From assembly GCA_023701125.1 (NCBI GenBank), contig JAMPXO010000030.1, positions 1 to 44,983 on the forward strand: a stretch of DNA of 44,983 nt. The letters run 5' to 3'. The notes under the pieces are model-generated. The model worked only from the letters and a program-made list of their open reading frames with translations, had not been told where the DNA came from and made no database searches. The stretch is from Vicinamibacteria bacterium. GTDB taxonomy: Bacteria > Acidobacteriota > Vicinamibacteria > Fen-336. Position numbers and translations under genes: made by a program. How positions within the stretch are numbered: the stretch's first letter is position 1; every line of letters starts with the position of its first letter. Of this stretch, positions 22,631 to 40,974 are shown piece after piece.

Positions 22631-22665
22631 ACTCCGGTCTGCGGCGACCGCGGCGCGACGTGCCC

Positions 22666-22676
22666 TTTCTACAAAG
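22666..22676 (+). promoter_or_regulatory. Shared upstream element TTTCTACAAAG (encapsulin operon)
   Basis: TTTCTACAAAG lies 80 bp before the T of the sigma-54 TGGC at 22746. The same element occurs at 29131, 31946 (reverse orientation) and 37347, with near-identical spacing. It is roughly palindromic (TTT-N-TA-N-AAA). It is a candidate enhancer site for one sigma-54 activator. Confidence 0.75.
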
Positions 22677-22745
22677 TTGCGCTGTCCGGCCCCGCGGCGA
22701 CCGCCGGTTCCGACGCCTTGCCGCGGCCTTTGGCGCCCGGGGCGG

Positions 22746-22761
22746 TGGCCCCGAGATTGCC
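22746..22761 (+). promoter_or_regulatory. Sigma-54 (RpoN) promoter of the encapsulin operon
   Basis: TGGCCCCGAGATTGCC matches the RpoN consensus TGGCAC-N5-TTGC, with GG at 22747-22748 and GC at 22759-22760. The predicted start is about 22772, giving a 52-nt leader with GGAGG at 22814-22818. The sequence from 22700 to 22800 is clearly similar to the promoter region at 29165-29267. Confidence 0.8.
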
Positions 22762-22823
22762 TTTCCTTCCAGCGGCCGGTCGTGATGCTCCGGCAAGGAG
22801 AAGGACCCGATACGGAGGAAGAG

Positions 22824-23186: not shown

Positions 23187-23188
23187 CC

Positions 23189-23998: not shown

Positions 23999-24005
23999 CG
24001 CCGGC

Positions 24006-25664
24006 TTGGAACCCGGCGCTCGCCACAAGTCGCCCAGCACCGGCGCCCTCACGGCTGAGGCGAGGGCGGTGCAGGACCGGCTCCACGAGTCGAATCCCCG
24101 CTACGACACCGTCATCATCGGCACGGGCATGGCCGCTCTCACCGTGGCGGCCCTGTTGGCCGAGAGCGGCCAGCGCGTCTGCATGCTGGAGGCCCACGAC
24201 CGGCCCGGCGGCTACGTCCACACGTTCGACTACGGGGACTTCTCCTTCTGTGCCCAGATCCACTACATCTGGGGCTGCGGACACGGCGACCGGGTCTGGC
24301 GCTTCCTGGACAAGCTCGGCCTGAACGCGGACATCGAGTTCGAAGCGCTCGACCCCGCTGGCTACGATCACGTGATCCTGCCGGATGGCAAACGAGTGAC
24401 CATCCCCTGTGGCTACGACCGGCTGGCCCGGAACATCGAGGCCGCATACCCGGGCCAGGGCGCCCGCGTGCGGGCGTTCACCGACATCCTCGACCGCCTG
24501 ACGGCGGAGGTGAGTCAACTCCCCGATTCCATCCGCTGGTGGCAGGTCCCCACCCTGGGCTGGCGCTTCCTGACCCTGCTCCGCTATCGCCACAAGACGG
24601 TGCAGCAGGTGTTCGACGAATGCGCGCTCAGCCGCGAGGCGCAGGCCGTCCTGATCGCCAACGCGGGCAACTTCATGTGCCCGCCCCGGGACCTCTCGAT
24701 CCTCGCCTACAACGGCCTGTTCTCCGGCTACAACCGCGGCGCCTATTACCCGCGCAAGCACTTCAAGCACCTGGTCGGGCGCCTGGTCGAGTTCATCACC
24801 TCCCATGCCGGCTGCCACGTCTACTACGAGCAGGAGGTGACCTCGCTCGCCGCCGGCGAGGACCGCGTCGAGTCCGTGGCCACCCGCGACGGGAAGGTCT
24901 TCAGCGCTCCCACCATCATCTGCAACGCCGACCCTCAGCAGATGGCCCGCGTGATCGGCCTCGAGAAGTTCCCGCGGCCCCATCGCAAGCCCCTGGAGTA
25001 CGAGTACTCGCAGACCGCGCTCACCGTCTATCTCGGGCTGCGCGGAGTGGACCTGCGGGAACACGGCTTCGGTCGCCACAACACCTGGCACCTCGAGCAG
25101 TGGGACATGAACGAGACCTGGGCCCAGGAGATGCGCCAGGACTGGAGCCGCCCCTGGGTCTTCATGGCGACCCCCTCGCTGCACACGGACGAACCGGGCA
25201 CCTGCCCGCCGGGCTCGCAGATCCTGGAACTCGCCACCACCGCCAACTACGACTACTTCCGCGAGCTGCGGGACCGCGACATCCGGGCCTACCGCCGCCA
25301 GAAGAAGGAAGTCGAAGACAAACTGATCGACATCGTCGAGCGTCACCACGTCCCCGACCTGCGCAAGCACATCGCCCTGCACGTGGCGGGCTCGCCCACC
25401 ACCAACGAGGACTTCTGCTGGGCGCCGCGCGGGCACTCCTACGGCCAGCAGCTCACCCCCGGGAACATGGGCCTCGGCCGGCTCAAGGCGAAGACGCCGT
25501 GGAAGAACTTCTACTGGTGCAATGCCGCGAGCGGTTACCCGGGCGTCAACGGCACGATCGGCACGGGGATGGAGCTGTACATGCGACTCACGGGCGATCG
25601 TTTCTGGAACCCGCGCGACACCCCCGACACGGCCACCTTGCTCCGTCAGTTGCCGGGCAGCTGA
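24006..25664 (+). CDS. CrtI-like FAD-dependent oxidoreductase (phytoene desaturase / retinol saturase superfamily)
   Basis: A protein of about 552 residues. The dinucleotide-binding motif VIIGTGMAALTVAALLAESG, then LEAHDRPGGYVHTF, begins near residue 41. The C-terminal FAD motif lies in NFYWCNAASGYPGVNGTIGTGMELYMRLTG. Such enzymes desaturate or saturate carotenoids and retinoids; the substrate is not evident. The start is uncertain: TTG at 24006 is 7 bp after the encapsulin stop, and GTG at 24069 is an alternative. It probably belongs to the encapsulin transcription unit. Its 3' end overlaps the convergent oxidoreductase by 19 bp. Confidence 0.85.
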   Translation: MEPGARHKSPSTGALTAEARAVQDRLHESNPRYDTVIIGTGMAALTVAALLAESGQRVCMLEAHDRPGGYVHTFDYGDFSFCAQIHYIWGCGHGDRVWRFLDKLGLNADIEFEALDPAGYDHVILPDGKRVTIPCGYDRLARNIEAAYPGQGARVRAFTDILDRLTAEVSQLPDSIRWWQVPTLGWRFLTLLRYRHKTVQQVFDECALSREAQAVLIANAGNFMCPPRDLSILAYNGLFSGYNRGAYYPRKHFKHLVGRLVEFITSHAGCHVYYEQEVTSLAAGEDRVESVATRDGKVFSAPTIICNADPQQMARVIGLEKFPRPHRKPLEYEYSQTALTVYLGLRGVDLREHGFGRHNTWHLEQWDMNETWAQEMRQDWSRPWVFMATPSLHTDEPGTCPPGSQILELATTANYDYFRELRDRDIRAYRRQKKEVEDKLIDIVERHHVPDLRKHIALHVAGSPTTNEDFCWAPRGHSYGQQLTPGNMGLGRLKAKTPWKNFYWCNAASGYPGVNGTIGTGMELYMRLTGDRFWNPRDTPDTATLLRQLPGS

Positions 25665-28594: not shown

Positions 28595-29115
28595 TGCGAA
28601 TGCTGTACACATACGTCGACACGCCGGTCGGTGATCTGCTGGTCGCGGGCGACGAAGGCGCGTTGCGCCTGGTGTCGTTCCCGACCGGCAAGATGCGGCG
28701 ACGGCCCGAGTCCGAGTGGGTCGAGGACGCGCGCCCGTTCAAGGCAGCGCGGCAGCAACTGCGCGAGTACTTCGCGGGCGCGCGCCAGCGCTTCGATTTG
28801 CCGCTCGAGCCCGTCGGCACTCCATTCCAGCGCCACGTGTGGGCGGAGTTACGGCGCATCCCGTACGGTCGCACGCGGACGTACGCCGAACTCGCCGCGC
28901 GCATCGGTCGGCCGCGCGCGATGCGGGCCGTCGGCACGGCCAACGGCGCCAACCCGCTGCCGATCGTGGTCCCGTGCCACCGCGTGATCGGCGCCGACGG
29001 CTCGCTCACCGGGTTCGGAGGTGGCCTTCCTGCCAAGCGCCTGCTCCTCGACCTCGAGGGCGCTCTGCCCCGCAACGACACCCACCCGGAGCGGGTCGCC
29101 CCGAAGCGGAAATAG
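28594..29115 (+). CDS. ogt: Methylated-DNA--protein-cysteine methyltransferase
   Basis: A 173-residue suicide repair protein that removes O6-alkyl groups from guanine. The active site PCHRVIGADGSLTGFGGGL contains acceptor Cys128. The upstream DNA-binding segment TPFQRHVWAELRRIPYGRTRTYAELA is conserved. The start at 28594 overlaps the Ada-AlkA stop; a second ATG six bases on is possible. GAGAGGAG lies just upstream. Together with the fusion gene it forms a two-gene adaptive-response operon. Confidence 0.95.
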   Translation: MRMLYTYVDTPVGDLLVAGDEGALRLVSFPTGKMRRRPESEWVEDARPFKAARQQLREYFAGARQRFDLPLEPVGTPFQRHVWAELRRIPYGRTRTYAELAARIGRPRAMRAVGTANGANPLPIVVPCHRVIGADGSLTGFGGGLPAKRLLLDLEGALPRNDTHPERVAPKRK

Positions 29116-29130
29116 CGGCGGCCGATCTCG

Positions 29131-29141
29131 TTTCTACAAAG
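29131..29141 (+). promoter_or_regulatory. Shared upstream element TTTCTACAAAG (peptide/peptidase/ligase operon)
   Basis: An exact TTTCTACAAAG, 81 bp before the T of the sigma-54 core at 29212. Identical to the copy at 22666. A secondary block TTATCG (29182-29187) lies 51 bp after it, corresponding to TTGCCG and TTACCG at the same offset in the encapsulin and kinase promoters. Confidence 0.75.
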
Positions 29142-29211
29142 ATGTGCCCTGCGGGCACCCTTCGCAGCCGGTTCCCGACGCTTATCGCGGCCTTTTGGGG
29201 GCCCGGACCGG

Positions 29212-29227
29212 TGGCCCCGCGTTTGCC
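29212..29227 (+). promoter_or_regulatory. Sigma-54 promoter of the peptide/peptidase/ligase operon
   Basis: TGGCCCCGCGTTTGCC, with GG at 29213-29214 and GC at 29225-29226, exact RpoN spacing. Predicted start is about 29238, giving a 40-nt leader that ends in CAAGGAG before the ATG at 29278. Confidence 0.8.
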
Positions 29228-29277
29228 CTTGCTTCCAGCGGCCGGGCCTCACGCTTCCGGCAAGGAGAACAAACCTG

Positions 29278-29487
29278 ATGGCCACCACTTCGAAGGTTCG
29301 GCAACTGCCCGACGGCGAAGAACTCGTCCGCCTCGACGATCTGGACGAGAACCTCTCAGGCCCCGAGGCTGACCCTCGGGAGCCCTGGTTCCAGCACAGG
29401 AGTGAGGCCGTCTCGAACCGGCGGCCTGCGGACGATCAGCCGGGCGGGCGCAAGGCGTCGCCGGCGACCGTCGGTGGCGGCCGATGA
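29278..29487 (+). CDS. 69-residue acidic small protein, first gene of the sigma-54 operon
   Basis: A hydrophilic peptide without signal or membrane segment. The N-terminal half is acidic (LPDGEELVRLDDLDENLSG), then PREPWFQHRS; the C-terminal half is basic and Gly-rich (PGGRKASPATVGGGR). I do not recognise a family. The start is well supported by CAAGGAGAA and the promoter 50 bp upstream. The stop overlaps the next gene (ATGA). Its position ahead of a metallopeptidase and an ATP-grasp ligase makes it a candidate substrate or partner, but this is inference. Confidence 0.65.
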   Translation: MATTSKVRQLPDGEELVRLDDLDENLSGPEADPREPWFQHRSEAVSNRRPADDQPGGRKASPATVGGGR

Positions 29488-29783
29488 AGAAGCCCCGCGG
29501 CAAGCCGAAGTCGACGAACCCGACGCCCGCGGAGGCGGGCCTGTCTGCCCTCGACCAGGACCGCTCGGCCTCGGTCGCCGACGAAGGCGGCGTCTCCGCG
29601 GCCCACGTCGAGGACCCGGACAAGGTCGAGGACCCGGACAGGATCGGGGACCCGGACCAGAACCCGGACAAGATCGGGGACCCGGACCAGAACCCGGACA
29701 GGATCGGGGACCCGGAGAAGGTCGCTCCCGCTGACGCCCCGCGGCTGACCCGAGCGAAGGCAGGCGCACCGAATCCGGCCTGA
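29484..29783 (+). CDS. 99-residue repeat protein with acidic GDPDQNP units
   Basis: A low-complexity small protein. The basic N-terminus MKKPRGKPKSTNPTP is followed by an acidic middle with repeated units: EDPDKV, EDPDRI, GDPDQNPDKI, GDPDQNPDRI, GDPEKV. The 30-nt DNA repeat is at about 29640-29725. The C-terminus is Ala/Pro-rich. There is no signal peptide. It is translationally coupled to the 69-residue gene. The pattern suggests a disordered, possibly cation-binding or processed peptide; no known family is recognised. Reading frames in such GC-rich repeats can be open by chance, so I hold this with moderate confidence. Confidence 0.55.
   Translation: MKKPRGKPKSTNPTPAEAGLSALDQDRSASVADEGGVSAAHVEDPDKVEDPDRIGDPDQNPDKIGDPDQNPDRIGDPEKVAPADAPRLTRAKAGAPNPA
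29640..29725. repeat. 30-nt in-frame tandem repeat
   Basis: GGGGACCCGGACCAGAACCC is repeated with a 30-base period inside the 99-residue gene, flanked by shorter GACCCGGAC variants. It encodes GDPDQNPDKI/GDPDQNPDRI. Confidence 0.8.
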
Positions 29784-29790
29784 GTACCCG

Positions 29791-30867
29791 ATGACGCTCG
29801 ACCGGCCCGACGACCTCGGCGCCTCGCCTGCTGGGCCTGCGTCTCGGGCCTTGCCGGCCGAGGTCTGGGAGAGCTGGACCGACGAGAAGCTGCTCGAGCT
29901 GCGGTTGTGCGCGCTCGCGCTGAAGATCGAGGGCAGCGCCCTCGAACCGAGCATCGCTCTTCTGCGGCGCGAGTTGCAGGCCAGCGGTCTCGGGTTCCGG
30001 CCCCATTTCTGGCTGTCGGACGAGTGGTTCACGCCGGACGGCATTCCCGGGATCGCGATCCCCTTCTACCTGGCGCATCCGCGGCTGGCGCGGCTGGAGC
30101 AGAGCCAGATGCTGGAGGTGGAGGGCGGCACCCCCGAGTGGTGCATGCGGATCCTGCGGCACGAGGCTGGCCACGCGATCGAGAACGCCTACCGGTTGCG
30201 GCGGCGACGGCAGCGCATCCGGCTGTTCGGCAAGAGCTCGGCACCCTACCCGGACCACTACGAGCCTCGACGCTACAGCAAGCGCTACGTGGTCCATCTC
30301 GAAGGGCGCTACGCGCAGAGCCATCCCGACGAGGACTTCGCAGAGACCTTCGCCGTGTGGCTCACGCCCGGCTCCGACTGGCGGGTGCGGTATGCCGGCT
30401 GGCCGGCACTCCACAAGCTGGAGTACGTCGACAGGCTGATGCGCGAGATCGGGCACAGCCCCCAGCTCGTGCGCTCGCGACGCCGCCCGGATGCGCTGCC
30501 GAGCCTGCGCCAGCGACTGCGCGAGCACTACGCGCGCAAGCGTCGGCACTACCGCGTCGACGTCGACGATTTCGACCAGCGCGACCTGCAGCGGGTGTTC
30601 TCGAGCGACGCGGCCTACGCGGGCAACCCGAGCGCAGCCGCGTTCCTCGCCCGCCACCGCCAGGAGCTGCGTCGGCGGGTGCGGCGCTTCACCGGCGAGT
30701 ACGCCTACACGATCGACCAGGTGCTGGCCGACATGATCGACCGCTGTCGGACCCAGAAGCTCCGCCTGATCGCGGCCGAAGCAGACGCCAAGCTGGACCT
30801 CGGCGTGCTGCTCGCCGCTCGGACCCTGAAGTACCGCCACAGCGGCCGGCACCGGGTGCCGCTGTGA
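29791..30867 (+). CDS. Putative zinc-dependent metallopeptidase (PF15887-like)
   Basis: A 358-residue soluble protein. The zinc site is HEAGH (His124-His128, catalytic Glu125). A downstream SHPDEDFAETFAVWL (Glu185) provides the likely third ligand. It resembles the HPxEDFAETxAxxL motif I recall for the putative zinc-binding metallopeptidase family PF15887. Substrate is unknown. The basic C-terminal ~140 residues are helical and rich in Arg. There is no signal peptide. It lies 7 bp after the repeat protein and overlaps the ATP-grasp gene (GTGA). Confidence 0.82.
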   Translation: MTLDRPDDLGASPAGPASRALPAEVWESWTDEKLLELRLCALALKIEGSALEPSIALLRRELQASGLGFRPHFWLSDEWFTPDGIPGIAIPFYLAHPRLARLEQSQMLEVEGGTPEWCMRILRHEAGHAIENAYRLRRRRQRIRLFGKSSAPYPDHYEPRRYSKRYVVHLEGRYAQSHPDEDFAETFAVWLTPGSDWRVRYAGWPALHKLEYVDRLMREIGHSPQLVRSRRRPDALPSLRQRLREHYARKRRHYRVDVDDFDQRDLQRVFSSDAAYAGNPSAAAFLARHRQELRRRVRRFTGEYAYTIDQVLADMIDRCRTQKLRLIAAEADAKLDLGVLLAARTLKYRHSGRHRVPL

Positions 30868-31907
30868 CCCGGCTGAGGGCGACCAGGCGGCCGCTGCGGA
30901 TCCTGGCGCTGATGCACGAGAGCCTGGTTCCGCCGGACGCGGCCGACGACGCCGAACGGGCGGCTGCGGAGTGGAAGACCGAGTACGACGTGGTGTCGAC
31001 GTTGCGCGAGCTGGGCCACGAAGTACACGCGCTGGGCGTGGGAGGCAGCCTGGGCGACATCCGCCACGCCGTCACGGCCTGGAAACCCCACATCGCCTTC
31101 AACCTGCTCGAGGGCTTCGACGACGTGGCCACCTGGGACCAGAACGTGGTGGCCTACCTCGAGCTGTCGGGCGTGCCCTACACAGGCTGCAACGCTCGCG
31201 GGCTGCTGCTGGGCCGCGACAAGGCGATCGCGAAGAGGCTGCTCACGTCGCACCGCATCGCGGTCGCCGACTTCGTGGTGGCGCCTCGCGGCCGGCAGTT
31301 CCGGCGCCCGCGGCGGCTGGTGTTCCCGCTGTTCGTCAAGTCGCTCACGCTCGACGCCTCGATCGGAATCTCCCAGGCCTCGGTGGTGGAGGACGACGAC
31401 AAGCTGCTCGAGCGCGTGCGCTTCATCCACGAGAGTACGGGCACCGACGCGCTGGTGGAGCGCTACATCGAGGGGCGCGAGCTGTACGTCGGCGTGCTCG
31501 GTAACGACCGGCTGCAGGTGCTGCCGATCTGGGAGCTCTACTTCGAGGACCTGCCGGAGGACAAGCGCCGGATCGCCACCGAGCGGTTGAAGTGGAGCCT
31601 CAGCTACCAGAAGAAACACGGCATCGACAGCGGCGCGGCCCGGGACCTGACGCCGGAGCTGGAGGCCCGCATCCGCGACACGTGCAAGCGGGTGTATCGC
31701 GCGCTGATGCTCTCGGGTTGCGCGCGCATCGACCTGCGGCTGACGGCGGCAGGACGGGTCTACGTGATCGAGGCCAATCCGAACCCCCAGATCTCGCGCG
31801 ACGAGGACTTCGCCCAGTCGGCACTCGTGGCCGGCCTGACGTACCCCGAGTTGCTGGAGCGGATCGTGAGACTGGGGCTGCGCTGGGAGCCCAGGCGCCT
31901 GGGCTGA
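30864..31907 (+). CDS. ATP-grasp ligase related to D-alanine--D-alanine ligases
   Basis: A 347-residue protein with the fold order of Ddl enzymes: an N-terminal Rossmann-like domain (LRILALMHESLVPP, FNLLEGFDD, GVPYTGCNARGLLLGRDKAIAK), a central ATP-binding domain (FPLFVKSLTLDASIGISQAS, VERYIEGRELYVGVLG) and a C-terminal metal-binding motif IEANPNPQISRDEDFAQSA. It should form an amide or peptide bond using ATP. It is not the cell-wall Ddl by context, since no mur genes are nearby. The GTG start overlaps the peptidase stop. It is the last gene of the operon. Confidence 0.85.
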   Translation: MTRLRATRRPLRILALMHESLVPPDAADDAERAAAEWKTEYDVVSTLRELGHEVHALGVGGSLGDIRHAVTAWKPHIAFNLLEGFDDVATWDQNVVAYLELSGVPYTGCNARGLLLGRDKAIAKRLLTSHRIAVADFVVAPRGRQFRRPRRLVFPLFVKSLTLDASIGISQASVVEDDDKLLERVRFIHESTGTDALVERYIEGRELYVGVLGNDRLQVLPIWELYFEDLPEDKRRIATERLKWSLSYQKKHGIDSGAARDLTPELEARIRDTCKRVYRALMLSGCARIDLRLTAAGRVYVIEANPNPQISRDEDFAQSALVAGLTYPELLERIVRLGLRWEPRRLG

Positions 31908-31945
31908 GGAGGCGCCTCGCGCTTCACCCGCCTGCTTCCTCACGT

Positions 31946-31955
31946 TTTGTAGAAA
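31946..31955 (-). promoter_or_regulatory. Shared upstream element, reverse orientation (histidine kinase/EPS unit)
   Basis: TTTGTAGAAA, the reverse complement of TTTCTACAAA, begins 79 bp before the sigma-54 core at 32025. A TTACCG block lies at 31997-32002, 51 bp after the element start. Confidence 0.7.
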
Positions 31956-32024
31956 TCGCCGGGAGCCGCGGGTGGACGGCGGGGGCCCACCTCGCGTTAC
32001 CGGCTCGCGCCAGGAAGACCTGCA

Positions 32025-32040
32025 CGGCACGCCGATTGCT
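32025..32040 (+). promoter_or_regulatory. Sigma-54 promoter of the histidine kinase/EPS unit
   Basis: CGGCACGCCGATTGCT is nearly a full match to the RpoN consensus, with GG at 32026-32027 and GC at 32038-32039. Predicted start is about 32051, 56 nt before the GTG at 32107. This is the best-scoring core of the group by eye. Confidence 0.85.
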
Positions 32041-32106
32041 CCTGTTCCTGGTGCCGGCGGACAGAAGGCAGGGGAACGCCATTCGCTGACGAGATAGGAC
32101 GACATC

Positions 32107-33171
32107 GTGCTGCACGAATTCCTGACCGCCAACACCGCGGAAATCATCGCCCGCACGCGGTTCAAGATCGCGGCGCGCACCTCGCCCGTCCCGACCGAGG
32201 CGGAGCTCAAGAACGGAGTCCCGCTCTTTCTCACGCAGCTGATCGACCGCTTGCGCCTGGCGACCACGAACAGCGATGCCATCGAACAGAGCGCCGGGCA
32301 CCACGGCGGCGAACTGGCCGCGATGGGCTTTTCCGTCAGCCAGGTCGTGCATGGCTACGGCGACATCTGCCAGGCCATCACCCAGCTCGCCGAAGAGACG
32401 AATGCCCCGATCACGGTCGAGGAGTTCAACACCTTCAACCGCTGCCAGGATGACGCCACCGCCGAGGCCGTCTCCGAATACGAGCGCTATCGCGACCGGT
32501 CAGCCGCCTACAACGGCATGGAACGCCAGGGAGCGCTGGCCCACGAAATGGGCAATCGAGTGGCCGCCGCCCTGATTGCCTTCAAGATCCTCAAGACGGG
32601 CGCGGTCGGCATCGGCGGCAGCACCGGCGCGGTGCTGGGCCGCAGTCTCCGCGCCCTGCGCTCCCTGATCAACAATTCCCTCGCCGAAGTGCGCCTCGAG
32701 TCCGGCCACACGGTCGTGACCCGGGTTCCGCTCGCCGACCTGATGGCGGAGGTGGAACTCGAGGCCTCGATGCGAGTCGGGGGCCCCGGTCAGCGGCTGG
32801 TGGTGTCCGAGGTCGACCCGGGCGTCGAGGTCCAGGCCGACGCGCAGATCCTCTCCGCCGCCCTTTCGAACCTGCTCCACAACGCCTTCAAGTTCGGCGG
32901 CGCCGACGGCCAGGTGTCGCTGATCACCAAGGTGACGGCCGATCGCGTCCTGTTCGAGGTCGAGGACGAGTGCGGAGGCCTTCCCCCCGGCAAGATCGAC
33001 CAGCTGTTCAAGCCCTTCAGGCAACAGGACGCCGACCGCTCGGGGCTCGGCCTCGGTCTCACCATCAGCCGCAGGGGCGTCGAGGCCATGGGGGGCCGCC
33101 TGTCGGTGCGGGACATGCCCGGTCACGGCTGTGTGTTCTCGATCGACCTGCCCAGGGCCCCTGTTGCCTGA
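32107..33171 (+). CDS. Soluble sensor histidine kinase
   Basis: A 354-residue cytoplasmic kinase without membrane segments. Residues 1-130 form a helical sensor region resembling the RsbRD N-terminal domain (FLTANTAEIIARTRFKIAAR). The phospho-acceptor is probably His146 in ALAHEMGNRVAAAL. The ATPase domain has an N box (SNLLHNAFKFGG), a G1-like DECGGLPPGKIDQLFKPF and a G2 GLGLGLTISRRGVEAMGG. No response regulator is adjacent. The GTG start has AGGA eight bases upstream. It opens the EPS cluster and is itself preceded by the shared sigma-54 promoter, so it may act in a feedback loop controlling EPS. Confidence 0.88.
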   Translation: MLHEFLTANTAEIIARTRFKIAARTSPVPTEAELKNGVPLFLTQLIDRLRLATTNSDAIEQSAGHHGGELAAMGFSVSQVVHGYGDICQAITQLAEETNAPITVEEFNTFNRCQDDATAEAVSEYERYRDRSAAYNGMERQGALAHEMGNRVAAALIAFKILKTGAVGIGGSTGAVLGRSLRALRSLINNSLAEVRLESGHTVVTRVPLADLMAEVELEASMRVGGPGQRLVVSEVDPGVEVQADAQILSAALSNLLHNAFKFGGADGQVSLITKVTADRVLFEVEDECGGLPPGKIDQLFKPFRQQDADRSGLGLGLTISRRGVEAMGGRLSVRDMPGHGCVFSIDLPRAPVA

Positions 33172-34723
33172 GTCGCTTCGCGACTCGGCGGCGGCGGCGT
33201 TCCCAGCAACGGCACCGCTGCCCCCCGCGGTCCTCGCCGAGTCCACGTTTCGACCGGCCGTCCGGCTGATGGCGGGGCGCGCGCTGGCTTCCATCACGAC
33301 GCTGCTGATCCCGGTGACCCTGGTCCGGGTCCTCGACCAGGCCGCGTACGGCACCTACAAGCAGCTCTTCCTGGTCTTCACCACGCTCTATTCGGTGGCC
33401 CTGGTCGGCCTCTCGGACAGCCTCTACTACTTCATCCCCCGCGACCCGGTACGCGGCGGGCGCTACGTGGCGAACGCGGTCGCAGGCTTGTCCATCGCCG
33501 GCCTCGCCTGCCTGGGCGGGCTCTACGCGACACGCTTCGCAATCGCCGGCTGGATGAAGAACGCGGCCCTGTCCGAACACCTCGTCTCGATCGGCCTGTT
33601 CCTGCTCTTCACCCTGGTCGCGACCGTGCTGGAGATCGCCCTGATCGCGCGCAAGCGCTACAGGCGCGCCGCCTCCGCGTACGTGGTCTCCGACGTGGTC
33701 CGGGCCGCGTGCTTCGTCGTGCCCATGCTGCTGCTGCCGACGCTGGACACGCTGATGTCGTGGGCGGTGGTGTTTTCGGCCGCCCGGCTGGTCGCCGCCC
33801 TGGTCATGCTCGAGAAGGAGTTCGGGAAGGACCTGCGGCTGGACCCTGGCCTGTGGCCGGCGCAGATCGCCTATGCGCTTCCGTTCGCGCTCTACGTCCT
33901 GGTGGAGATCCTCCAGGCCACGTTCCACCAGTACGCGGTGAGCTGGCACTTCGATGCCGTCACCTTCGCGATCTACTCGGTGGGCTGTTTCCAGGTCCCG
34001 TTCGTGGACTTCCTCGCGACCCCGGCCTCGAGCGTGATGATGGTGCGGATGAGCGAGGTGCAGCGCGAGGGCCGCCCGCAGGAGGCGCTCGCCATCTGGC
34101 TCGACGTCACCCGCAAGCTGGCGCTGATCTTCTTCCCGATGGTGGCGTTGCTGATCGCCACCTCGCGCGAGGTGATCACCTTCCTGTTCACCGACGCCTA
34201 CGCGGCGAGCGCTCCGATCTTCGCCCTGTGGTCGCTGACCATCGCCCTGTCGGTGCTGCAGACGGACGCCGTGATGAGGGTCCACGCCCAGATCCGTTTC
34301 CTGTTCTTCGTCAACCTGCTGCGACTGGCCGTGATCGTCGCCTCCATCCAGGCCCTGATGGGGGGATTCGGCCTGATCGGTCCGGTACTGGCCACCCTGT
34401 TCGCGATGGCCCTCGCCAAGGTCCTGCACCTCTGGCGGATGGGACGGGTCATGAACCTGAAGGCTTCACAGTTGCTGCCCTGGCCGGCGCTGGGCGCCAT
34501 CCTCGCGGTGAGCGCGATCGCCGTCGCGCCCTTGCTGGTGGTGCAGGCGCTCGCGGCAGGGTCGCGGCCCGTCGTCCTCCTGATCGGGACTGCGGGCTAC
34601 GGCCTGACCTACGTGCTGCTCCTGGTGACGACCGGAGTCGTCACCGTCGAGGAGCGCGCGAGCCTCGGCCGCTGGTGCCGCGTCAACCTGCTCGGCGCCC
34701 TGGCGCCGGCGGGCGTCCGGTAG
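33164..34723 (+). CDS. Polysaccharide flippase (MOP superfamily, Wzx-like)
   Basis: A polytopic inner-membrane protein of about 519 residues with 12-14 hydrophobic segments (GRALASITTLLIPVTLVRVL, FLVFTTLYSVALVGLSDSLYYF and others). It probably flips lipid-linked repeat units across the inner membrane. The start is uncertain: TTG at 33164 overlaps the kinase stop and gives a 35-residue leader, while ATG at 33269 begins just before the first membrane segment. PEP-CTERM/XrtA-type clusters often include such transporters. Confidence 0.85.
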   Translation: MPESLRDSAAAAFPATAPLPPAVLAESTFRPAVRLMAGRALASITTLLIPVTLVRVLDQAAYGTYKQLFLVFTTLYSVALVGLSDSLYYFIPRDPVRGGRYVANAVAGLSIAGLACLGGLYATRFAIAGWMKNAALSEHLVSIGLFLLFTLVATVLEIALIARKRYRRAASAYVVSDVVRAACFVVPMLLLPTLDTLMSWAVVFSAARLVAALVMLEKEFGKDLRLDPGLWPAQIAYALPFALYVLVEILQATFHQYAVSWHFDAVTFAIYSVGCFQVPFVDFLATPASSVMMVRMSEVQREGRPQEALAIWLDVTRKLALIFFPMVALLIATSREVITFLFTDAYAASAPIFALWSLTIALSVLQTDAVMRVHAQIRFLFFVNLLRLAVIVASIQALMGGFGLIGPVLATLFAMALAKVLHLWRMGRVMNLKASQLLPWPALGAILAVSAIAVAPLLVVQALAAGSRPVVLLIGTAGYGLTYVLLLVTTGVVTVEERASLGRWCRVNLLGALAPAGVR

Positions 34724-34730
34724 ACCGCCC

Positions 34731-36677
34731 ATGTGCGGCATCGCCGGCATCTTCCACCTGCGCGGAGGGCCCGTGGAGGAGCACGACATCGCCCGGATGT
34801 GCGATGCGCTCACCCACCGCGGACCGGACGAGGGCGGCGTCCATCTGGCGGCCGGGATCGGGATCGGCATGCGCCGTCTCAGCGTGATCGACGTCGCGGG
34901 TGGCTCGCAGCCGATCGGAAACGAGGACGGCTCCGTGTGGGTCGTGTTCAACGGCGAGATCTACAACTTCCGCGACCTGCGCCGGGAGCTGATCGGGTCG
35001 GGGCATGTCTTCCGCACCCAGACCGACACCGAGGTGATCGCCCATCTCTACGAGGAGCGCGGCGCCTCCTGCGTCGAACACCTTCGGGGCATGTTCGCCT
35101 TCGCGCTGTGGGACGCTGGACGGCGGCAGCTGCTCCTCGCCCGCGACCGGTTGGGCGTGAAGCCGCTCTACTGGACCGAAGCCGCGGGCCGGCTGGTGTT
35201 CGCGTCCGAGCTCAAGGCCATCCTCCAGCTTCGCGAGGTGGAGCGTCAGCTCGACTGGGGCTCCGTGGACCACCTCTTCACCCATCTCACCACTCCCGCG
35301 AGCGACAGCATCATCGAGGGTGTCCACAAGCTCGAGCCCGGCCATGTGCTGACCGCGAGTGTTGCGACGGGCGTTCGCCGCCACCGTTACTGGGCGCCGC
35401 GGTTCGAGCCCGATCGCAGCAAGGGCCTGGACCACTTCGTCGAGGGTGTCCGCGGGCTGCTCGAGGAGTCGGTGCGCCTGCGCCTCGTCAGCGACGTGCC
35501 GCTCGGCGCGTTTCTTTCCGGCGGCCTCGACAGCAGCGCCGTCGTCGCGACCATGGCGGGCGCGATGGATCAACCGGTCAGGACGTTTTCGATCGGATTC
35601 GCAGAACGCGCCTTCGACGAGCTCCGCTACGCGCGCCTGATCGCGGAGAAGTTCGGCACCCTCCACCGGGAACTGATCGTGGAGCCGAACGTCGTCGACA
35701 TCCTCGACGACATCGCCTGGTTCCTGGACGAGCCCTTCGGCGATTCCTCCGCCATCCCCACCTACCTGGTCTCGCAGATGGCGGCCGAACACGTGACCGT
35801 CGTGCTCTCCGGAGACGGCGGCGACGAGTTGTTCGCAGGCTACGACAAGTACCGGATCGAGGGCCGCGAGCGCGAGGCCCTGCCCGCGCTCTCGCGGGCC
35901 GCGCTGCGCGCCATCGGCCGGTACATGCCCGACGGGATGAGGGGTCGCAACTTCGTTCGTCACCATGGCCTCACCGGGGCGGAGCGCTACCTCGACGCCT
36001 CCACCCTCTTCCGTGAGGATCAGAAGCGCAGGCTGTTCCAGCCCGAGGCCTATGCGCGGCTCGCCGCGGGCGATGAAGCCCGCAACGAGGCGCGGGCCTT
36101 CCTGCGAGGCGGGGGGCACTGGTTGTCCGAGCTGCAGCAGCTCGACATCGAGCGCTCGCTCCCGCTCGACATCCTGACCAAGGTGGATCGCATGAGCATG
36201 GCGCACTCGCTCGAGGCGCGTGAGCCGCTGCTCGATCACAAGCTGGTCGAGTTCGCCGCCACCATACCGCCGGAGATGCAGATCCGGGACGGCTCCGGGA
36301 AGTCCGTGTTCAAGCAGGCCATGCGTGGCGTGCTGCCGGACACGGTGATCGATCGCCGCAAGCAGGGCTTCGGCGTCCCGCTCGGGAGCTGGTTCCGCGC
36401 TTCGCTCTCCGGCTTCCTGCGCGACCTCCTGCTCTCGGGGCCGGCCCGCGATCGCGGCATCTTCGAGCCCGCCTACGTGCTCAGGCTGATCGAGCGGCAT
36501 GAAGCGGGCCAGGACCTCGGCCTCCACCTGTGGACGCTCATCTCCTTCGAGCTCTGGTGCCGCGCGTTCCTCGACCGGACGACGACCAGGCCCCGGGTGC
36601 GACCCGCCCGCGGCTGCGTCATCGAACCACCTCGCTCCAGCGCTCCGCCGCTCGCCCGGGCCGCTCGGACCTGTTGA
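34731..36677 (+). CDS. Asparagine synthase-like amidotransferase of the exopolysaccharide cluster
   Basis: A 648-residue protein. The N-terminal class II glutamine amidotransferase domain begins MCGIAGIF, with catalytic Cys2 after Met removal, and has RLSVIDVAGGSQPI and FNGEIYN. The synthetase domain has the PP-loop SGGLDSSAVV starting at residue 263, then LSGDGGDELFAGYDKY. It should hydrolyse glutamine and transfer ammonia to an ATP-activated carboxylate, probably on a sugar or amino acid of the polymer rather than aspartate. It matches the amidotransferase commonly found in XrtA/PEP-CTERM EPS clusters. It starts 7 bp after the flippase stop. Confidence 0.92.
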   Translation: MCGIAGIFHLRGGPVEEHDIARMCDALTHRGPDEGGVHLAAGIGIGMRRLSVIDVAGGSQPIGNEDGSVWVVFNGEIYNFRDLRRELIGSGHVFRTQTDTEVIAHLYEERGASCVEHLRGMFAFALWDAGRRQLLLARDRLGVKPLYWTEAAGRLVFASELKAILQLREVERQLDWGSVDHLFTHLTTPASDSIIEGVHKLEPGHVLTASVATGVRRHRYWAPRFEPDRSKGLDHFVEGVRGLLEESVRLRLVSDVPLGAFLSGGLDSSAVVATMAGAMDQPVRTFSIGFAERAFDELRYARLIAEKFGTLHRELIVEPNVVDILDDIAWFLDEPFGDSSAIPTYLVSQMAAEHVTVVLSGDGGDELFAGYDKYRIEGREREALPALSRAALRAIGRYMPDGMRGRNFVRHHGLTGAERYLDASTLFREDQKRRLFQPEAYARLAAGDEARNEARAFLRGGGHWLSELQQLDIERSLPLDILTKVDRMSMAHSLEAREPLLDHKLVEFAATIPPEMQIRDGSGKSVFKQAMRGVLPDTVIDRRKQGFGVPLGSWFRASLSGFLRDLLLSGPARDRGIFEPAYVLRLIERHEAGQDLGLHLWTLISFELWCRAFLDRTTTRPRVRPARGCVIEPPRSSAPPLARAARTC

Positions 36678-36690
36678 TCGGAGGACCCTC

Positions 36691-37272
36691 ATGAACAAGA
36701 CCCTGTCCCTGCTCGCCGCTCTCGCCACGCTCGCCGTCTCCGGGACCGCGCTGGCCCAGCGCCCCGAGGCGTCCGACCGCGCGGTGCCGGCCGGCTATCG
36801 CATCGGTTCGGAGGACATCCTGCAGATCTCGGTGTTCGGAAACGAGGCGCTCAGTCGCACGGTGCCGGTGCGCCCCGACGGCAAGATCTCCCTGCCGCTC
36901 CTCAACGACGTGCAGGCGGCCGGCCTCACGCCGATGGAACTGCGCGAGGTCCTGATGAAGAGGCTCGTGGAGTTCGTGCCGTCGCCCGAGATCTCGGTGA
37001 TGGTGACCGAGGTGCGGAGCTTCATGATCTCGGTCATCGGTCAGGTGACGAAGCCCGGTCGGTACGATCTCCGGAGTTCGGCCACCGTCGTCGACGCGCT
37101 GGCCATGGCCGGGGGCTTCAAGGAGTTCGCGGGCCGGTCGAAAATCGTGGTGATTCGCCGCGAGGGAGGCACCTCGAGGCGCATCGCGTTCGACTACGAC
37201 AAGCTGAGCGACTCGAAGACACCCCAGGACAACTTCGAGCTGCGACCGGGCGACATCGTCATGGTCCCGTAG
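36691..37272 (+). CDS. Polysaccharide export lipoprotein-like protein (Wza/SLBB family)
   Basis: A 193-residue exported protein. The signal peptide is about 1-22 (ending GTALA-QRP), without a lipobox cysteine. The PES domain is RIGSEDILQISVFGNEALSRTVPVRPDGKISLPLL. One SLBB domain follows (ISVIGQVTKPGRYDLRSSATVVDALAMAGGFKEFA), then the typical end FELRPGDIVMVP. It is short for Wza and matches the compact export proteins of XrtA-type clusters. GGAGGA lies 6 bases before the ATG. It forms the periplasmic/outer-membrane part of the export channel. Confidence 0.92.
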   Translation: MNKTLSLLAALATLAVSGTALAQRPEASDRAVPAGYRIGSEDILQISVFGNEALSRTVPVRPDGKISLPLLNDVQAAGLTPMELREVLMKRLVEFVPSPEISVMVTEVRSFMISVIGQVTKPGRYDLRSSATVVDALAMAGGFKEFAGRSKIVVIRREGGTSRRIAFDYDKLSDSKTPQDNFELRPGDIVMVP

Positions 37273-37346
37273 TGCCGGAACCGCTCGCGGGTCGCGCCGG
37301 AAAACACCGATCGTCGGGCAGGGCGGCCCCGCCGTCGGTGAGCCGC

Positions 37347-37357
37347 AATCTACAAAG
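37347..37357 (+). promoter_or_regulatory. Shared upstream element AATCTACAAAG (beta-barrel/EPS unit)
   Basis: It differs from TTTCTACAAAG at the first two bases and lies 79 bp before the sigma-54 core at 37426. Confidence 0.65.
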
Positions 37358-37425
37358 CGCGCGGCCCCGCTCCCGGGCGTAAGCGGATCCCCGCGCCGGA
37401 TGCCGGCGTTTCGAGGGCCTGCCCG

Positions 37426-37441
37426 TGGCCGCCATATTGCA
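37426..37441 (+). promoter_or_regulatory. Internal sigma-54 promoter in the EPS cluster
   Basis: TGGCCGCCATATTGCA has GG at 37427-37428 and GC at 37439-37440, exact spacing and TTGCA. Predicted +1 is at about 37452, two bases before the likely GTG start of the beta-barrel gene, implying a nearly leaderless transcript. Confidence 0.75.
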
Positions 37442-37453
37442 GTACGAAGCAGT

Positions 37454-38647
37454 GTGGAGTCCGCCGGTCGGGTCCGTCTCTTCATTCTCGGTTTCGCCCT
37501 CGTGACCCTCGTGGTCCCGGGGGGCAGTGCCCAGGAGCTGGCGCCCCAGCCCCCGAAGCAGCTCGGCGCCTTCGTGGTTCCCATGCTCACCGTGGCCGAG
37601 ACCTGGGACGACAACCTCTTCTTCACCCAGTTCCCGGAGTCCGATCTCGTGACGCGGGCGATCCTCAGCGTCGAAGCCGGCTACCGCTCGACGGCGTTCA
37701 CCGTCAACCTGCAGGGCGCGCGCGCCGCCGACTACTTCGAGCGCCACTCGGAGTTCAACACCACTCGCGGCCGCACGCTCGCACAGGCGACCGTGACCGC
37801 GCTCCCGACGAGGTCACTGACCTTGTCCCTCTTCGCGTGCTATCTCGACACCAAGACGCCCAGCGAGTTGAACCTGATCTCCGGACTGGCTGTCGGCCGA
37901 TCGCTCGCCACCCGGGTCTCGGCCACGCCCATGATCGAGTATCGACTGGGCAGCGTATCGACCCTGACCGCCGCGTTCCCGCTGGCCCACGACACCCTCG
38001 ACGGCCGGACCTCCGACACCCAGTCCGGCGTCCTCGGGCTCGATCGCCGCATCACGCGCCGGGACGCCCTGGGCCTGCGCTACGAGCATCGCTGGTTCCA
38101 CTTCACCGGCGGCGACAAGACGGAGCGGTCCACGTCCGACGTCGTGACCCTCGGCTGGCTGGGCGAGGTTTCGGAGAACACCCTGCTCCTGATTCGCGCG
38201 GGGCCCCGCTACGCAAAGGGTGCCTTCACGGCGGAGATCCTGGCCACGATGAAGCGCCGCACGAGCCGCGGTCTGCTCACCGTCACCTACTCCAAGACCC
38301 AGGCCACCACGCTCGGCAAGACGGGCGCTCTCGACACCCAGTCGCTGGTGGCGTCGATGGCCTGGCGGGTCGCGAAACACCTCGAGATCGCTTCGGGTCC
38401 GGGCGTGTATCACAACTCCCTGCGCGGTCAGAACCTGAACGCCATGCGCTTGAACCTCGAATCGCTGTGGCACTTCTCGCCCTGGTTCCACCTCGGAGCC
38501 TCGTACTCTTTCGACCTCCAGCAGCCGGACTACGGCGTGCCCGGGCACATCCGGCGCGGCGCCTTCATGGTCAAGCTCCTCGCCTCGAAGGCCCAGCGAC
38601 GGCCGGAAGACACGACCGCGGAAGCCACCCCCTCGGAGTCGAACTAG
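37454..38647 (+). CDS. Outer-membrane beta-barrel protein of the exopolysaccharide cluster
   Basis: A protein of about 397 residues with a signal peptide (RVRLFILGFALVTLVVPGGSAQE). The rest consists of repeated amphipathic strands typical of large barrels (AFTVNLQGARAADYF, LGLRYEHRWFHFTG, HLGASYSFDLQQ). It is probably the outer-membrane component for polymer export, comparable to the barrel proteins (EpsL/TIGR03016-like) of other such clusters. The start is uncertain: GTG at 37454 fits the promoter, while ATG at 37400 lies upstream of the predicted transcription start. It ends 2 bp before the next gene. Confidence 0.75.
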   Translation: MESAGRVRLFILGFALVTLVVPGGSAQELAPQPPKQLGAFVVPMLTVAETWDDNLFFTQFPESDLVTRAILSVEAGYRSTAFTVNLQGARAADYFERHSEFNTTRGRTLAQATVTALPTRSLTLSLFACYLDTKTPSELNLISGLAVGRSLATRVSATPMIEYRLGSVSTLTAAFPLAHDTLDGRTSDTQSGVLGLDRRITRRDALGLRYEHRWFHFTGGDKTERSTSDVVTLGWLGEVSENTLLLIRAGPRYAKGAFTAEILATMKRRTSRGLLTVTYSKTQATTLGKTGALDTQSLVASMAWRVAKHLEIASGPGVYHNSLRGQNLNAMRLNLESLWHFSPWFHLGASYSFDLQQPDYGVPGHIRRGAFMVKLLASKAQRRPEDTTAEATPSESN

Positions 38648-38649
38648 CC

Positions 38650-40161
38650 GTGGTCCCGAACGCAAGGACGGGCATCGAGCAGGCGCTGGCCTCTTTTAGC
38701 CGCCGCAGGTGGGTCGCGCTCTCGATCTTCGCCCTCGTCCTGTCCGTGGCCCTGAGCTTCGCGAAGTCGCTGCCCAACCTCTACGAGTCCACGGCGACGC
38801 TCCTCGTCGAGCGACCGGCCAGCCAGGGCGGGGCCGACGACGTGGAGTCGCGGCTTCAGAGCATCCGTCAGGAGATCCTCAGCCGCACGCGGCTCGCCGA
38901 ACTGATCGGCCGCCTGGACCTGTACCCCGCCATGCGCACGGGGGCATGGTCGCAGGAGGCCGTGGTCGAACGCATGCGCCGGGATGTCCGCATCGGCGCG
39001 TCCGGTTCGGAGCTGGCCGCCGGGCGCGGCACGATCGCCTTCGCGCTGGCCTACCGCGGTCGGGACCCGGTGAAGGTGACGCTCGTCGCCAATGCCCTCG
39101 CCTCGTCGTACATCGAGGAGGAATCGGTCCTGCGCGAACGCCAGACGAGCGGGGCCGCGGGGGTCCTGCGCACCCAGCTCGACGAAGTCAAGAAGCGGCT
39201 CGCTCCCCAGGAGGCGCGGATCGCCGAGTTCAAGCGGCTCCACGCGGGGGAGCTTCCCCAGCAGGCGGATTCGAGCTTCCTCGCCGTCGAGCGCCTCAAC
39301 GGACAGCTCCAGCGGGTGAGCGACACGCGCGCAGCGGCGGTGGAAAGGCGCGCCACCCTGCTTCGCGAGGCAGGCGAACCCGGCGCCCTGGGTGACGCGT
39401 CGGATCCCGATCGGGTCCGGCTGGCCAGGCTGACCCAGGAGCTGGCGGCGCTGCGTACACGTTTCTCGGACCGCTACCCCGACGTCGCGAGCAAGAAGGC
39501 CGAGGTCGACAGCCTGTCGGCCGTGGTGGCCTCCAAGCCCCAGGTCGATCGCGCCCTGCCGCAGCTCGAACAGGCGAATCGCGAGATCCGCAGCCTGCAG
39601 GCCCAGGAGGCGCGCCTTCAGGCCGAGATCGGCCTGTATCAGCGCCGCGTCGAAGGGGCTCCGTTCCGCGAGCAGGAGTACCAGGTGCTCGCCCGTGACT
39701 ACCAGACCACCCGCGACTTCTACGACACCCTGCTCAAGCGGTACGAAGAAGCGCAGCTCGCCGAAGCGCGCGAGGACGGGCCCCAGGGGCAGCGCCTGCG
39801 GCTGCTCGACCCTGCGATCACGCCGGTGAGTGCCCTGGCTCCCGATCGCATCCGGCTCGCCATGTTCGGCCTGATCGCGGCACTCGCCCTGGCCGTCGTC
39901 GGCGTCGCCGGCGCCGAGAAGCTCGACTCCTCCTTCCACTCGGCCGAGGACCTCGGCCGGCATACGCGCGTGCCCGTCCTGGTGCGCATCCCGCGGATGT
40001 CGACCGATTCCGCCGCCGACCGAACGCGAGCGCGGCGAAGGGCCGCACTGCTGGCCCTGGGCCTCACGGCTGGCCTCGTCATCGCCGTCAGCGCTTCGCG
40101 GCTCGTGGCCCAGGACAACGAAACCGTCGTCGCCATCCTCGCCCCCCGGGGACGGCCATGA
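38650..40161 (+). CDS. Polysaccharide chain-length/co-polymerase protein (Wzz/GumC-like)
   Basis: A 503-residue inner-membrane protein. The first membrane helix is at about 20-38 (WVALSIFALVLSVALSF), then a Wzz domain (YESTATLLVERPA). A long coiled-coil periplasmic region runs from about 160 to 360, ending near the GNVR-like FREQEYQVLARDYQTTRDFYDTLL. Membrane helices lie near 400-420 (LAMFGLIAALALAVVGVAG) and 460-480. It sets polymer length and partners the BY-kinase. GTG start at 38650; the stop overlaps the kinase start (ATGA). It resembles the XrtA-system chain-length determinant. Confidence 0.9.
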   Translation: MVPNARTGIEQALASFSRRRWVALSIFALVLSVALSFAKSLPNLYESTATLLVERPASQGGADDVESRLQSIRQEILSRTRLAELIGRLDLYPAMRTGAWSQEAVVERMRRDVRIGASGSELAAGRGTIAFALAYRGRDPVKVTLVANALASSYIEEESVLRERQTSGAAGVLRTQLDEVKKRLAPQEARIAEFKRLHAGELPQQADSSFLAVERLNGQLQRVSDTRAAAVERRATLLREAGEPGALGDASDPDRVRLARLTQELAALRTRFSDRYPDVASKKAEVDSLSAVVASKPQVDRALPQLEQANREIRSLQAQEARLQAEIGLYQRRVEGAPFREQEYQVLARDYQTTRDFYDTLLKRYEEAQLAEAREDGPQGQRLRLLDPAITPVSALAPDRIRLAMFGLIAALALAVVGVAGAEKLDSSFHSAEDLGRHTRVPVLVRIPRMSTDSAADRTRARRRAALLALGLTAGLVIAVSASRLVAQDNETVVAILAPRGRP

Positions 40162-40946
40162 GCACGAGCAGCGGGATCCGCCCTGCCACGATCGCCGAGG
40201 CCTCCGGCCGCAGGCAGATCAGAAGCGTCGCGACCGCGCCTCACGCTCCGCAAGCCTATGCGGCCGAGCAGTACCGGGTGTTGAGCCACATCACCCAGCA
40301 ACTGGCGAAGGTCTCGCGCAAGGTGATCGCGATCTCGAGCCCGATCGCGGGCGACGGCAAGACCACGACCAGCATCAACCTGGCGCGTGCGCTCTCGCAG
40401 TCCGCGGGCGTACGGGTCCTGCTGATCGACGCCGACCTCCGGCGTGGCTCGCTCGGCGAGCAACTCGGCATCGCCCGCTCCGCGAGCCCTGGCCTCGGCG
40501 GGATGATCGCGGACCCTCTCTCTCGCCTCGACGAGGCGGTGCGCCGACGGCCGGGCCTGGGCTTCGCCGTGCTGCCCGCGGGGGTCTGCCCCGCGATGCC
40601 CTACGAGGCGCTCAGGTCGGCCCGGATCGGCGAGCTGATCGCCGAGGCGCGCGAGCGATTCGATCACGTGCTGCTCGACACGCCGCCGGTGGTTCCGGTA
40701 GCGGACCTGCGCGCGATCAGCGAGTGGGTGGACGGCATCTACCTGGTGGTGAGCGCGCACATCACCCCTCGCGGACTGCTCGACGAGGCGTTGTCCGCGA
40801 TGGACCCCGACAAGGTCGTGGGCATCGTCTACAACGGAGACGACCTGCCCTTGTCGAGGCGCCATCGGTCCTACTACTCCTACGGCGAGCCCGTCCCGAA
40901 GCCCGGCCTGTGGTCCTCGCTGCTGGGAGCGGGGCGGCGGCCGTGA
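40158..40946 (+). CDS. Cytoplasmic tyrosine autokinase (BY-kinase, CpsD/CapB type)
   Basis: A 262-residue P-loop kinase. The Walker A motif is SSPIAGDGKTTTS (Gly65-Thr70), Walker A' LLIDADLRRG and Walker B VLLDTPPV. The C-terminus carries a tyrosine cluster, YYSYGEP, the usual autophosphorylation site. It acts with the adjacent chain-length protein to control EPS polymerisation and export. Separate Wzz and kinase genes resemble the XrtA-associated tyrosine autokinase arrangement. It overlaps the preceding gene by 4 bp; the gap to the next gene is 28 bp. Confidence 0.93.
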   Translation: MSTSSGIRPATIAEASGRRQIRSVATAPHAPQAYAAEQYRVLSHITQQLAKVSRKVIAISSPIAGDGKTTTSINLARALSQSAGVRVLLIDADLRRGSLGEQLGIARSASPGLGGMIADPLSRLDEAVRRRPGLGFAVLPAGVCPAMPYEALRSARIGELIAEARERFDHVLLDTPPVVPVADLRAISEWVDGIYLVVSAHITPRGLLDEALSAMDPDKVVGIVYNGDDLPLSRRHRSYYSYGEPVPKPGLWSSLLGAGRRP

Positions 40947-40974
40947 GGTCGCGGAGGTCGCCGGGCAGGGCGCC

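Follow-up and report, generated by a model that had tools for sequence, protein, structure and literature searches.

A soluble orphan histidine kinase at the head of an EPS gene cluster, behind a sigma-54 core and a rare candidate enhancer, in a Vicinamibacteria bacterium

Results and discussion

Computational analysis of a 44,983-nucleotide contig from a Vicinamibacteria bacterium (the window) showed that a soluble orphan histidine kinase is encoded first in a run of EPS genes, behind a sigma-54 core and a 9-mer, TTTGTAGAA, that is rare in the genome and co-located with sigma-54 cores. The occurrence of this 9-mer upstream of the kinase-EPS core is newly found here, and it also stands before the encapsulin and the peptidase/ATP-grasp operons of the same window. 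The reading that we favour, at about even probability, is that an orphan kinase with an RsbR-type globin fold is the first product of the EPS operon of a small sigma-54 regulon defined by TTTGTAGAA, and then modulates a receiver encoded elsewhere. Coordinates of all features are collected in Table 1.

Table 1 Features of the window (scores of cores are consensus positions matched)
Feature	Position	Strand	Remarks
Second TTTGTAGAA copy	22667-22675	-	Upstream of encapsulin operon
Divergent sigma-54-like core GGGCACGCCGCGTGCA	22615-22630	-	10/12; 45 bp from 22667 9-mer copy
Sigma-54-like core TGGCCCCGAGATTGCC	22746-22761	+	9/12; 79 bp from 9-mer
EncFtn encapsulated ferritin	22824-23186	+	PF22277, E 8.8e-38
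Family 1 encapsulin shell protein	23189-23998	+	
FAD amine oxidoreductase	24006-25664	+	7 bp after encapsulin gene
Third TTTGTAGAA copy (TTCTACAAA on + strand)	29132-29140	-	Upstream of peptidase/ATP-grasp operon
Sigma-54-like core TGGCCCCGCGTTTGCC	29212-29227	+	9/12; 80 bp from 9-mer
Small ORF, 69 aa	29278-29487	+	No Pfam match
Small repetitive ORF, 99 aa	29484-29783	+	DPDK/DPDQ repeats
Zinc-binding metallopeptidase-like	29791-30867	+	PF15887
ATP-grasp ligase, D-Ala-D-Ala ligase kind	30864-31907	+	Ends 199 bp before kinase
Candidate enhancer (activator-binding) 9-mer TTTGTAGAA	31946-31954	+	79 bp upstream of core CGGCACGCCGATTGCT, start to start
Sigma-54 core (-24/-12) CGGCACGCCGATTGCT	32025-32040	+	11/12
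Orphan soluble histidine kinase	32107-33171	+	N-domain ~1-135 with predicted globin fold; DHp with H146; HATPase_c 245-351
Wzx-like polysaccharide flippase (Polysacc_synt_3)	33131-34723	+	Longest ORF, overlaps kinase stop
Asparagine-synthase-like amidotransferase	34731-36677	+	TIGR01536 over cut-off; TIGR03108 650.3 bits, under cut-off 816.9
Polysaccharide export lipoprotein, TIGR03027-like	36691-37272	+	Start by eye
Outer-membrane protein, TIGR03016-like	37400-38647	+	Below cut-off
Chain-length determinant, TIGR03007-like	38650-40161	+	Start by eye
Tyrosine autokinase, TIGR03018-like	40158-40946	+	
Polyprenyl glycosylphosphotransferase, TIGR03025	40975-42504	+	Over cut-off
O-ligase-like protein, TIGR03097-like	42483-43814	+	
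Glycosyltransferase	43811-44983	+	Cut by contig end

The kinase and its EPS gene cluster

The kinase ORF comprises 354 amino acids, starts with GTG behind an AGGA 7 nt upstream, and is open throughout with its catalytic residues intact. A Pfam profile search matched HATPase_c at 80.2 bits (cut-off 26.4), the N, G1 and G2 boxes are visible by eye in an alignment of the kinase family, and H146, the phospho-acceptor of the DHp domain, is conserved at 90% or more among the 19 aligned members. Pfam HisKA was matched by 6 of these 19, the window kinase not being among the reported matches, and the C-terminal part of the structural model matches the DHp-CA cores of DivL (4q20, Z 15.2), CpxA and HK853. 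An initial reading made from the sequence alone had proposed an orphan histidine kinase, and the ORF, HATPase_c, H146 and the DHp-CA fold are all present. It had also described the protein as soluble, which agrees with a maximum 19-residue hydropathy of 1.66 versus 2.58 for the neighbouring flippase. The adjacent response regulator that it had reported missing was likewise not detected, a receiver HMM giving 0 matches across the whole window; this HMM is home-made and recovers 3, 4 and 1 ORFs at three loci that had helped to train it.

Downstream of the kinase, EPS genes from flippase to glycosyltransferase follow on the + strand up to the contig end, so that the kinase does head an EPS cluster, as first proposed. 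The largest gap between ORFs in this run is about 127 bp, before 37400. The true start of the flippase is uncertain (TTG 33164 or ATG 33268, by eye), and its overlap with the kinase is thus a statement about ORFs; with the flippase ORF beginning at or just past the kinase stop, the kinase and the EPS genes are likely to be co-transcribed. The contig stops 11.8 kb past the kinase, so that the cluster is visible only up to that point, and a search for the rest of it found the last 184 bases of the contig on no other contig of the genome. The contig closes with a self-complementary stretch of 26 bases (44958-44983), and it is here that the glycosyltransferase gene breaks off. Separately, a 9/12 core-like site, TGGCCGCCATATTGCA, lies at 37426, close to where the outer-membrane protein gene begins, at chance level.

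The EPS genes are similar to XrtA-system families, for the most part without reaching the cut-offs of those families, which raises the alternative that the kinase belongs to an XrtA/PEP-CTERM type of EPS control, in which PrsK and PrsR act with RpoN. The excerpted text of PMC9850573 ties PrsK-PrsR and RpoN to floc formation in Aquincola, and the window shares with such systems both XrtA-type EPS genes and sigma-54. Unlike them, the genome (95% complete) yielded 0 exosortase matches and neither PrsR (best match 418.3 bits against a cut-off of 502.6) nor PrsK over cut-off, and the window kinase matches PrsK in its C-terminal part only. Control by PrsK and PrsR was set aside as largely refuted, and we regard membership of the kinase in it as extremely unlikely. 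A PrsK-PrsR-like pair is found at C17:76149-80462, both members below cut-off, with an exact sigma-54 core upstream; its kinase has the highest PrsK score in the genome.

A sigma-54 core precedes the kinase gene

The core CGGCACGCCGATTGCT is the sole one-mismatch sigma-54 site of the window and ends 66 bp before the kinase start codon. Taken alone it is at chance level, since a site this good is expected 0.41 times on average in the window and 31 of 100 shuffles reach one, and its mismatch places C rather than T at -26. These two points would fit a chance match, with the EPS operon driven by another promoter. Against that, the exact class GGCACG-N4-TTGCW occurs at 19 sites genome-wide versus 2 in the reversed control, and the base preceding the core at these 19 sites is C in 9, T in 5, G in 3 and A in 2. 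As C is the commonest base there, the mismatch of CGGCACGCCGATTGCT is no mark against it. In addition, TTTGTAGAA is co-located with cores, as described below. A scan of 31600-44983 for a sigma-70-type promoter found none, an outcome of little weight, as 0.3 would be expected in shuffles and other promoter types lie outside the scan. A chance match is, on this evidence, very improbable, and the sigma-54 core that the sequence-only reading had placed before the kinase is upheld by its 11/12 score and the enrichment of its class. Two of the 19 exact cores are followed by genes that we take, from ORFs read by eye, to be PilA-like and Hsp70-like.

A rare 9-mer is associated with sigma-54 cores

TTTGTAGAA was found by comparing the 220 bp upstream of the kinase core with the corresponding stretches of the other 18 exact cores, and was chosen post hoc among the shared 9-mers as AT-rich and rare in a genome of 72% GC. 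Owing to this post hoc choice, the copy at the kinase and those at two other exact cores were kept separate in the tests. The 9-mer occurs 12 times in the 5,409,304 bases of the 5.41 Mb genome, versus once in the reversed control. With one mismatch allowed, it was found within 400 bp upstream of 3 of the 19 exact cores, exact in every case, at 80, 95 and 59 bp before the GG. For the 18 exact cores other than that of the kinase, two copies within 100 bp were seen versus 0.0022 expected (P 2.5e-6, or about 5e-4 after correction for the 212 9-mers of the kinase region).

The converse comparison starts from the 9-mer. A core-like site 40-100 bp away scores at least 9/12 at 7 of the 12 copies, at least 10 at 5 and at least 11 at 3; for the nine held-out copies, the corresponding counts are 4, 2 and 0. 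The held-out result at the threshold of 9 has P 3e-4 against 20,000 random places (400 kb of genome) and 6e-3 against 129 AT-rich places, and at the threshold of 10 the values are 6e-4 and 0.045, respectively. Two held-out promoters are diverged copies of each other and were therefore counted once, after which 3 of 8 copies qualify (P 0.003 random, 0.03 AT-rich). Anagrams of TTTGTAGAA reached core scores of 9, 10 and 11 in 2, 1 and 0 of 27 cases, and 3 of 19 reached 9/12 in an earlier locus set, some loci of which had been chosen for activators or cores. At five of the 12 copies, the range of 40-100 bp holds no core-like site. The ten directed pairings of 9-mer and core are spaced 58-94 bp apart with a single exception at 45. 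By these measures the association between TTTGTAGAA and sigma-54 cores is supported, yet not overwhelming, and we consider the 9-mer a plausible, moderately supported candidate for the enhancer of a small sigma-54 regulon. One exact core with TTTGTAGAA lies at C196:6544-6653, before an ABC1/UbiB-like kinase gene.

No copy of TTTGTAGAA was found in the 1.17 Mb (26%) covered of a genome of the same genus (G013), an absence that says little because the covered part has no encapsulin, peptidase, ATP-grasp or flippase matches. NtrC-type activators usually bind paired sites, according to the excerpt of PMC11841059, and a search of the kinase promoter found no second TTTGTAGAA copy there. A paired or palindromic activator site was also sought in this promoter and the candidates were rejected: several GC-rich palindromes are present, and the longest strings in common with other promoters (GC-rich, of 13 and 12 nt) do not exceed what is expected by chance, since strings of at least 13 nt arise in 59 of 300 random sets.

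Two further operons of the window carry the same candidate promoter elements

The earlier description of the promoter as shared, and of its core as the best RpoN core of a group whose members it does not list, agrees with our own count. Three + strand cores of the window lie behind the same 9-mer with spacings of 79, 80 and 79 bp (encapsulin, peptidase/ATP-grasp and kinase-EPS), and within this group the kinase core scores 11/12 versus 9/12 for the cores at 22746 and 29212, whose scores are at chance level for the window. The promoters at 22640-22800 and 29105-29272, separated by 6.5 kb, are a duplicated pair that has diverged (125 of 171 columns; score 63, with shuffles reaching 7 at most). 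The kinase promoter is no duplicate of this sort: compared with the encapsulin promoter, it scores lower than the best shuffle. What they have in common is the 9-mer, the core and the spacing.

The genes at 22824-25664 form an iron-storage compartment operon behind a sigma-54-like core. The C-terminal end of EncFtn, SLAIGSMKG, resembles an encapsulin targeting tail. The small ORFs, metallopeptidase-like gene and ATP-grasp gene at 29278-31907 might together form a modified-peptide system. Should the enhancer prove real, a single sigma-54 activator would govern both iron-storage encapsulins and EPS, and a search of full texts in the open-access literature listed no paper linking encapsulin, EPS and sigma-54. 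In an extended form of this idea, which we hold to be distinctly unlikely, a single enhancer-defined sigma-54 regulon would couple the EncFtn-encapsulin, the peptidase/ATP-grasp peptide system and EPS, the globin-fold kinase would feed back on the activator of the regulon, and surface coat and iron/redox defence would be switched as a unit that contains its own sensor.

The N-terminal domain has a predicted globin fold

The kinase had been called RsbRD-like from its sequence, a term that is fair for the predicted fold of the N-domain and does not extend to the protein as a whole. The Pfam RsbRD_N profile matches the first 135 residues weakly (13.9 bits, E 0.09, curated cut-off 24.3) and 8 of 19 kinase-family members at E 0.1 or better, the window kinase included, with a best E of 7.6e-11. 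No STAS domain was matched by Pfam in the kinase, the C-terminal half of which is DHp and HATPase where RsbRD has STAS; with STAS absent and the score below cut-off, the kinase is not an RsbRD. In a genome-wide search the sole RsbRD_N match lies elsewhere, on contig C8, and is below cut-off.

The prediction of a globin fold, as in the N-domains of RsbR, comes from a model with three underlying sequences, the best of five having a mean pLDDT of 80.0 and the other four 57.0 or less. Its Foldseek neighbours include BpeGReg, the RsbR N-domain 2bnl, pXO1-118 and the AfGcHK globin domain (5ohe), at E 0.018 or worse and none at 0.001. Structure comparison with VIA gave 3zta (Z 13.0, rmsd 2.5 over 126), Vitreoscilla haemoglobin (Z 13.0) and the Listeria stressosome 7b0u (Z 11.6), where a Z under about 13 may reflect a common helical arrangement. 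The top rows of both searches are mainly globins, phycobiliproteins and RsbR N-domains, to be read with the Foldseek E values and the four poor models in mind. A search of solved structures by sequence gave no credible match to the N-domain. H66, a candidate for a haem-binding proximal histidine, is kept across the family alignment except in the two Nostoc rows.

AfGcHK of Anaeromyxobacter and NmpU of Myxococcus are soluble globin-coupled histidine kinases (PMC11841059; related records PMC8697598 and PMC6211767); unlike these, the window kinase has no match to a globin or protoglobin Pfam family at E 1. RsbR-type globin domains may be haem-free or haem-binding (PMC4976288, as excerpted). A globin-type sensor like those of RsbR and NmpU, as suggested for this family, would narrow the search for a signal to a gas, redox or a hydrophobic ligand. 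Among papers naming RsbRD together with histidine kinase, none concerns this kinase family by its title, and a combined-term literature search on EPS control by sigma-54 gave no paper.

The kinase family is scattered

At E 1e-35 the kinase family was found in 1 of 17 genomes of the order, that of the window itself (the others are 63-100% complete), and in a sample of the phylum the N-domain was found in 10 of 396 genomes, own included (E 1e-6). Named records include a homologue in a Gemmatimonadales MAG (47%) and plasmid homologues in Caballeronia, Paraburkholderia, Polaromonas, Variovorax and Nostoc, with 11 records at least 97% covered at 42-46%. In a Gammaproteobacteria MAG, the homologue (L038:10001-10669) retains the sensor domain and ends before the kinase core. 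Viral contigs were searched for relatives of the kinase and contained none.

The family is mostly without a nearby receiver: a receiver ORF lies within 4.5 kb at 6 of 20 homologue loci, directly adjoining the kinase at three, and the other 14 have none in the flank examined, several flanks being short. Five annotated plasmid regions (of eight fetched) have no EPS genes beside the homologue, and one of the five has a divergent response regulator. In the upstream 220 bp of 22 homologue loci, the best sigma-54-like score is 9/12, seen once. The pair of flippase and amidotransferase genes was found in three relatives (G001-G003), in which another gene precedes the flippase (a glycosyltransferase gene in G001), and the stretches retrieved around these pairs gave no match to the kinase. 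Given the lack of EPS genes and strong sigma-54 cores at homologues, the link between kinase and EPS is specific to this genome among those examined, and given the scattered family and the absence of a match in 16 relatives of the order, the kinase appears to have joined the operon late.

The same observations bear on the possibility that the kinase is a passenger, which landed by chance between an existing sigma-54 promoter and EPS genes, acts on a receiver of some unrelated pathway and plays no part in EPS control. The scattered distribution, plasmids included, the position specific to this genome and the 14 of 20 loci lacking a receiver ORF all speak for it, set against an open frame with intact catalytic residues and a flippase ORF that abuts or overlaps the kinase. 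We judge a passenger somewhat unlikely.

Candidate activators and a possible feedback loop

The sigma-54 activator domain has 35 matches in the genome. In eighteen activators the match to the PrsR profile begins at one of its first two positions and extends across the receiver to the AAA domain, and 14 of these 18 have a kinase match within 3 kb on the same contig. The four receiver-bearing activators with no kinase match within 3 kb (C65:60044, C202:7809, C189:2025 and C200:91157) are equally open as partners for the kinase. The search for partner regulators suggested with the original reading returned 18 receiver-bearing activators. Two activators, on contigs C227 and C231, adjoin copies of TTTGTAGAA and are favoured for that reason as candidate activators of the regulon. 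On C227, an NtrC-type activator (receiver, AAA and HTH_8; 13785-15095) has as neighbours a PAS-HisKA-HATPase-receiver hybrid kinase and another ORF with a kinase match, and two TTTGTAGAA copies, at 13078 and 18769, flank this kinase/hybrid kinase/regulator locus (13078-18777). The C231 activator (72995-75940, in a locus at 72995-76445) matches Pfam GGDEF, GAF and AAA with no receiver match; TTTGTAGAA at 76396 lies between it and a divergent catalase-like gene, with 9/12 core-like sites on both sides.

In our favoured reading, a soluble, mostly orphan kinase of a scattered family would have become the first gene of the EPS operon in this lineage. The promoters of the regulon, which would also cover the EncFtn-encapsulin and peptidase/ATP-grasp operons in the same 10 kb, would carry TTTGTAGAA ahead of the core, at 58-94 bp in most cases. 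Binding of an NtrC-type activator to this 9-mer, with those of C227 and C231 as the likeliest candidates, would turn the promoters on. Sitting behind a promoter of the regulon, the kinase would be produced solely while the regulon is active, and once made it may modulate a receiver encoded elsewhere.

This arrangement recalls the NmpRSTU system, in which the soluble globin kinase NmpU of Myxococcus controls the NtrC-type regulator NmpR through the hybrid kinase NmpS (excerpt of PMC11841059). Both have a soluble kinase with a globin-fold sensor, predicted in the present case, NtrC-type regulators and sigma-54 promoters behind a common enhancer, here a candidate one. Unlike its counterpart there, the window kinase is not beside a hybrid kinase or an NtrC regulator, with no receiver domain in the window, and the NmpR site given in the same excerpt, GCGCA-N5-TGCGC, differs from TTTGTAGAA, GCGCA being absent from the 220 bp upstream of the kinase core. 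A sigma-54 EPS locus is also found in the syp system of Vibrio fischeri (SypG/SypF), where several kinases feed an NtrC-type regulator (PMC10162802 and PMC12369376, both as excerpted); unlike syp, the window kinase lacks a built-in receiver domain and the visible part of the EPS cluster encodes no activator.

The initial reading had raised the possibility of a feedback loop. In such a closed loop, the activator acting at the kinase promoter would itself be a phosphorylation target of the kinase, either directly or by way of the C227 hybrid kinase, with NmpU-NmpS-NmpR as a precedent (PMC11841059). The position of the kinase behind the common promoter elements is consistent with such a loop, as are the receiver of the C227 activator, the two TTTGTAGAA copies near it and its adjoining hybrid kinase. 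We nevertheless consider a closed loop unlikely, since C227 already has kinases of its own, no receiver was matched in the C231 activator, the homologue regions examined show no link between the kinase family and such loci, and a search of the order's 16 other genomes at E 1e-35 gave no member of the family. The 12 genomic sites and two candidate activators allow the loop to be tested directly, rather than among 18 receiver-bearing NtrC-type regulators. Beside activators without kinases, ORFs read by eye include what we take to be sugar-nucleotide and glycosyltransferase genes.
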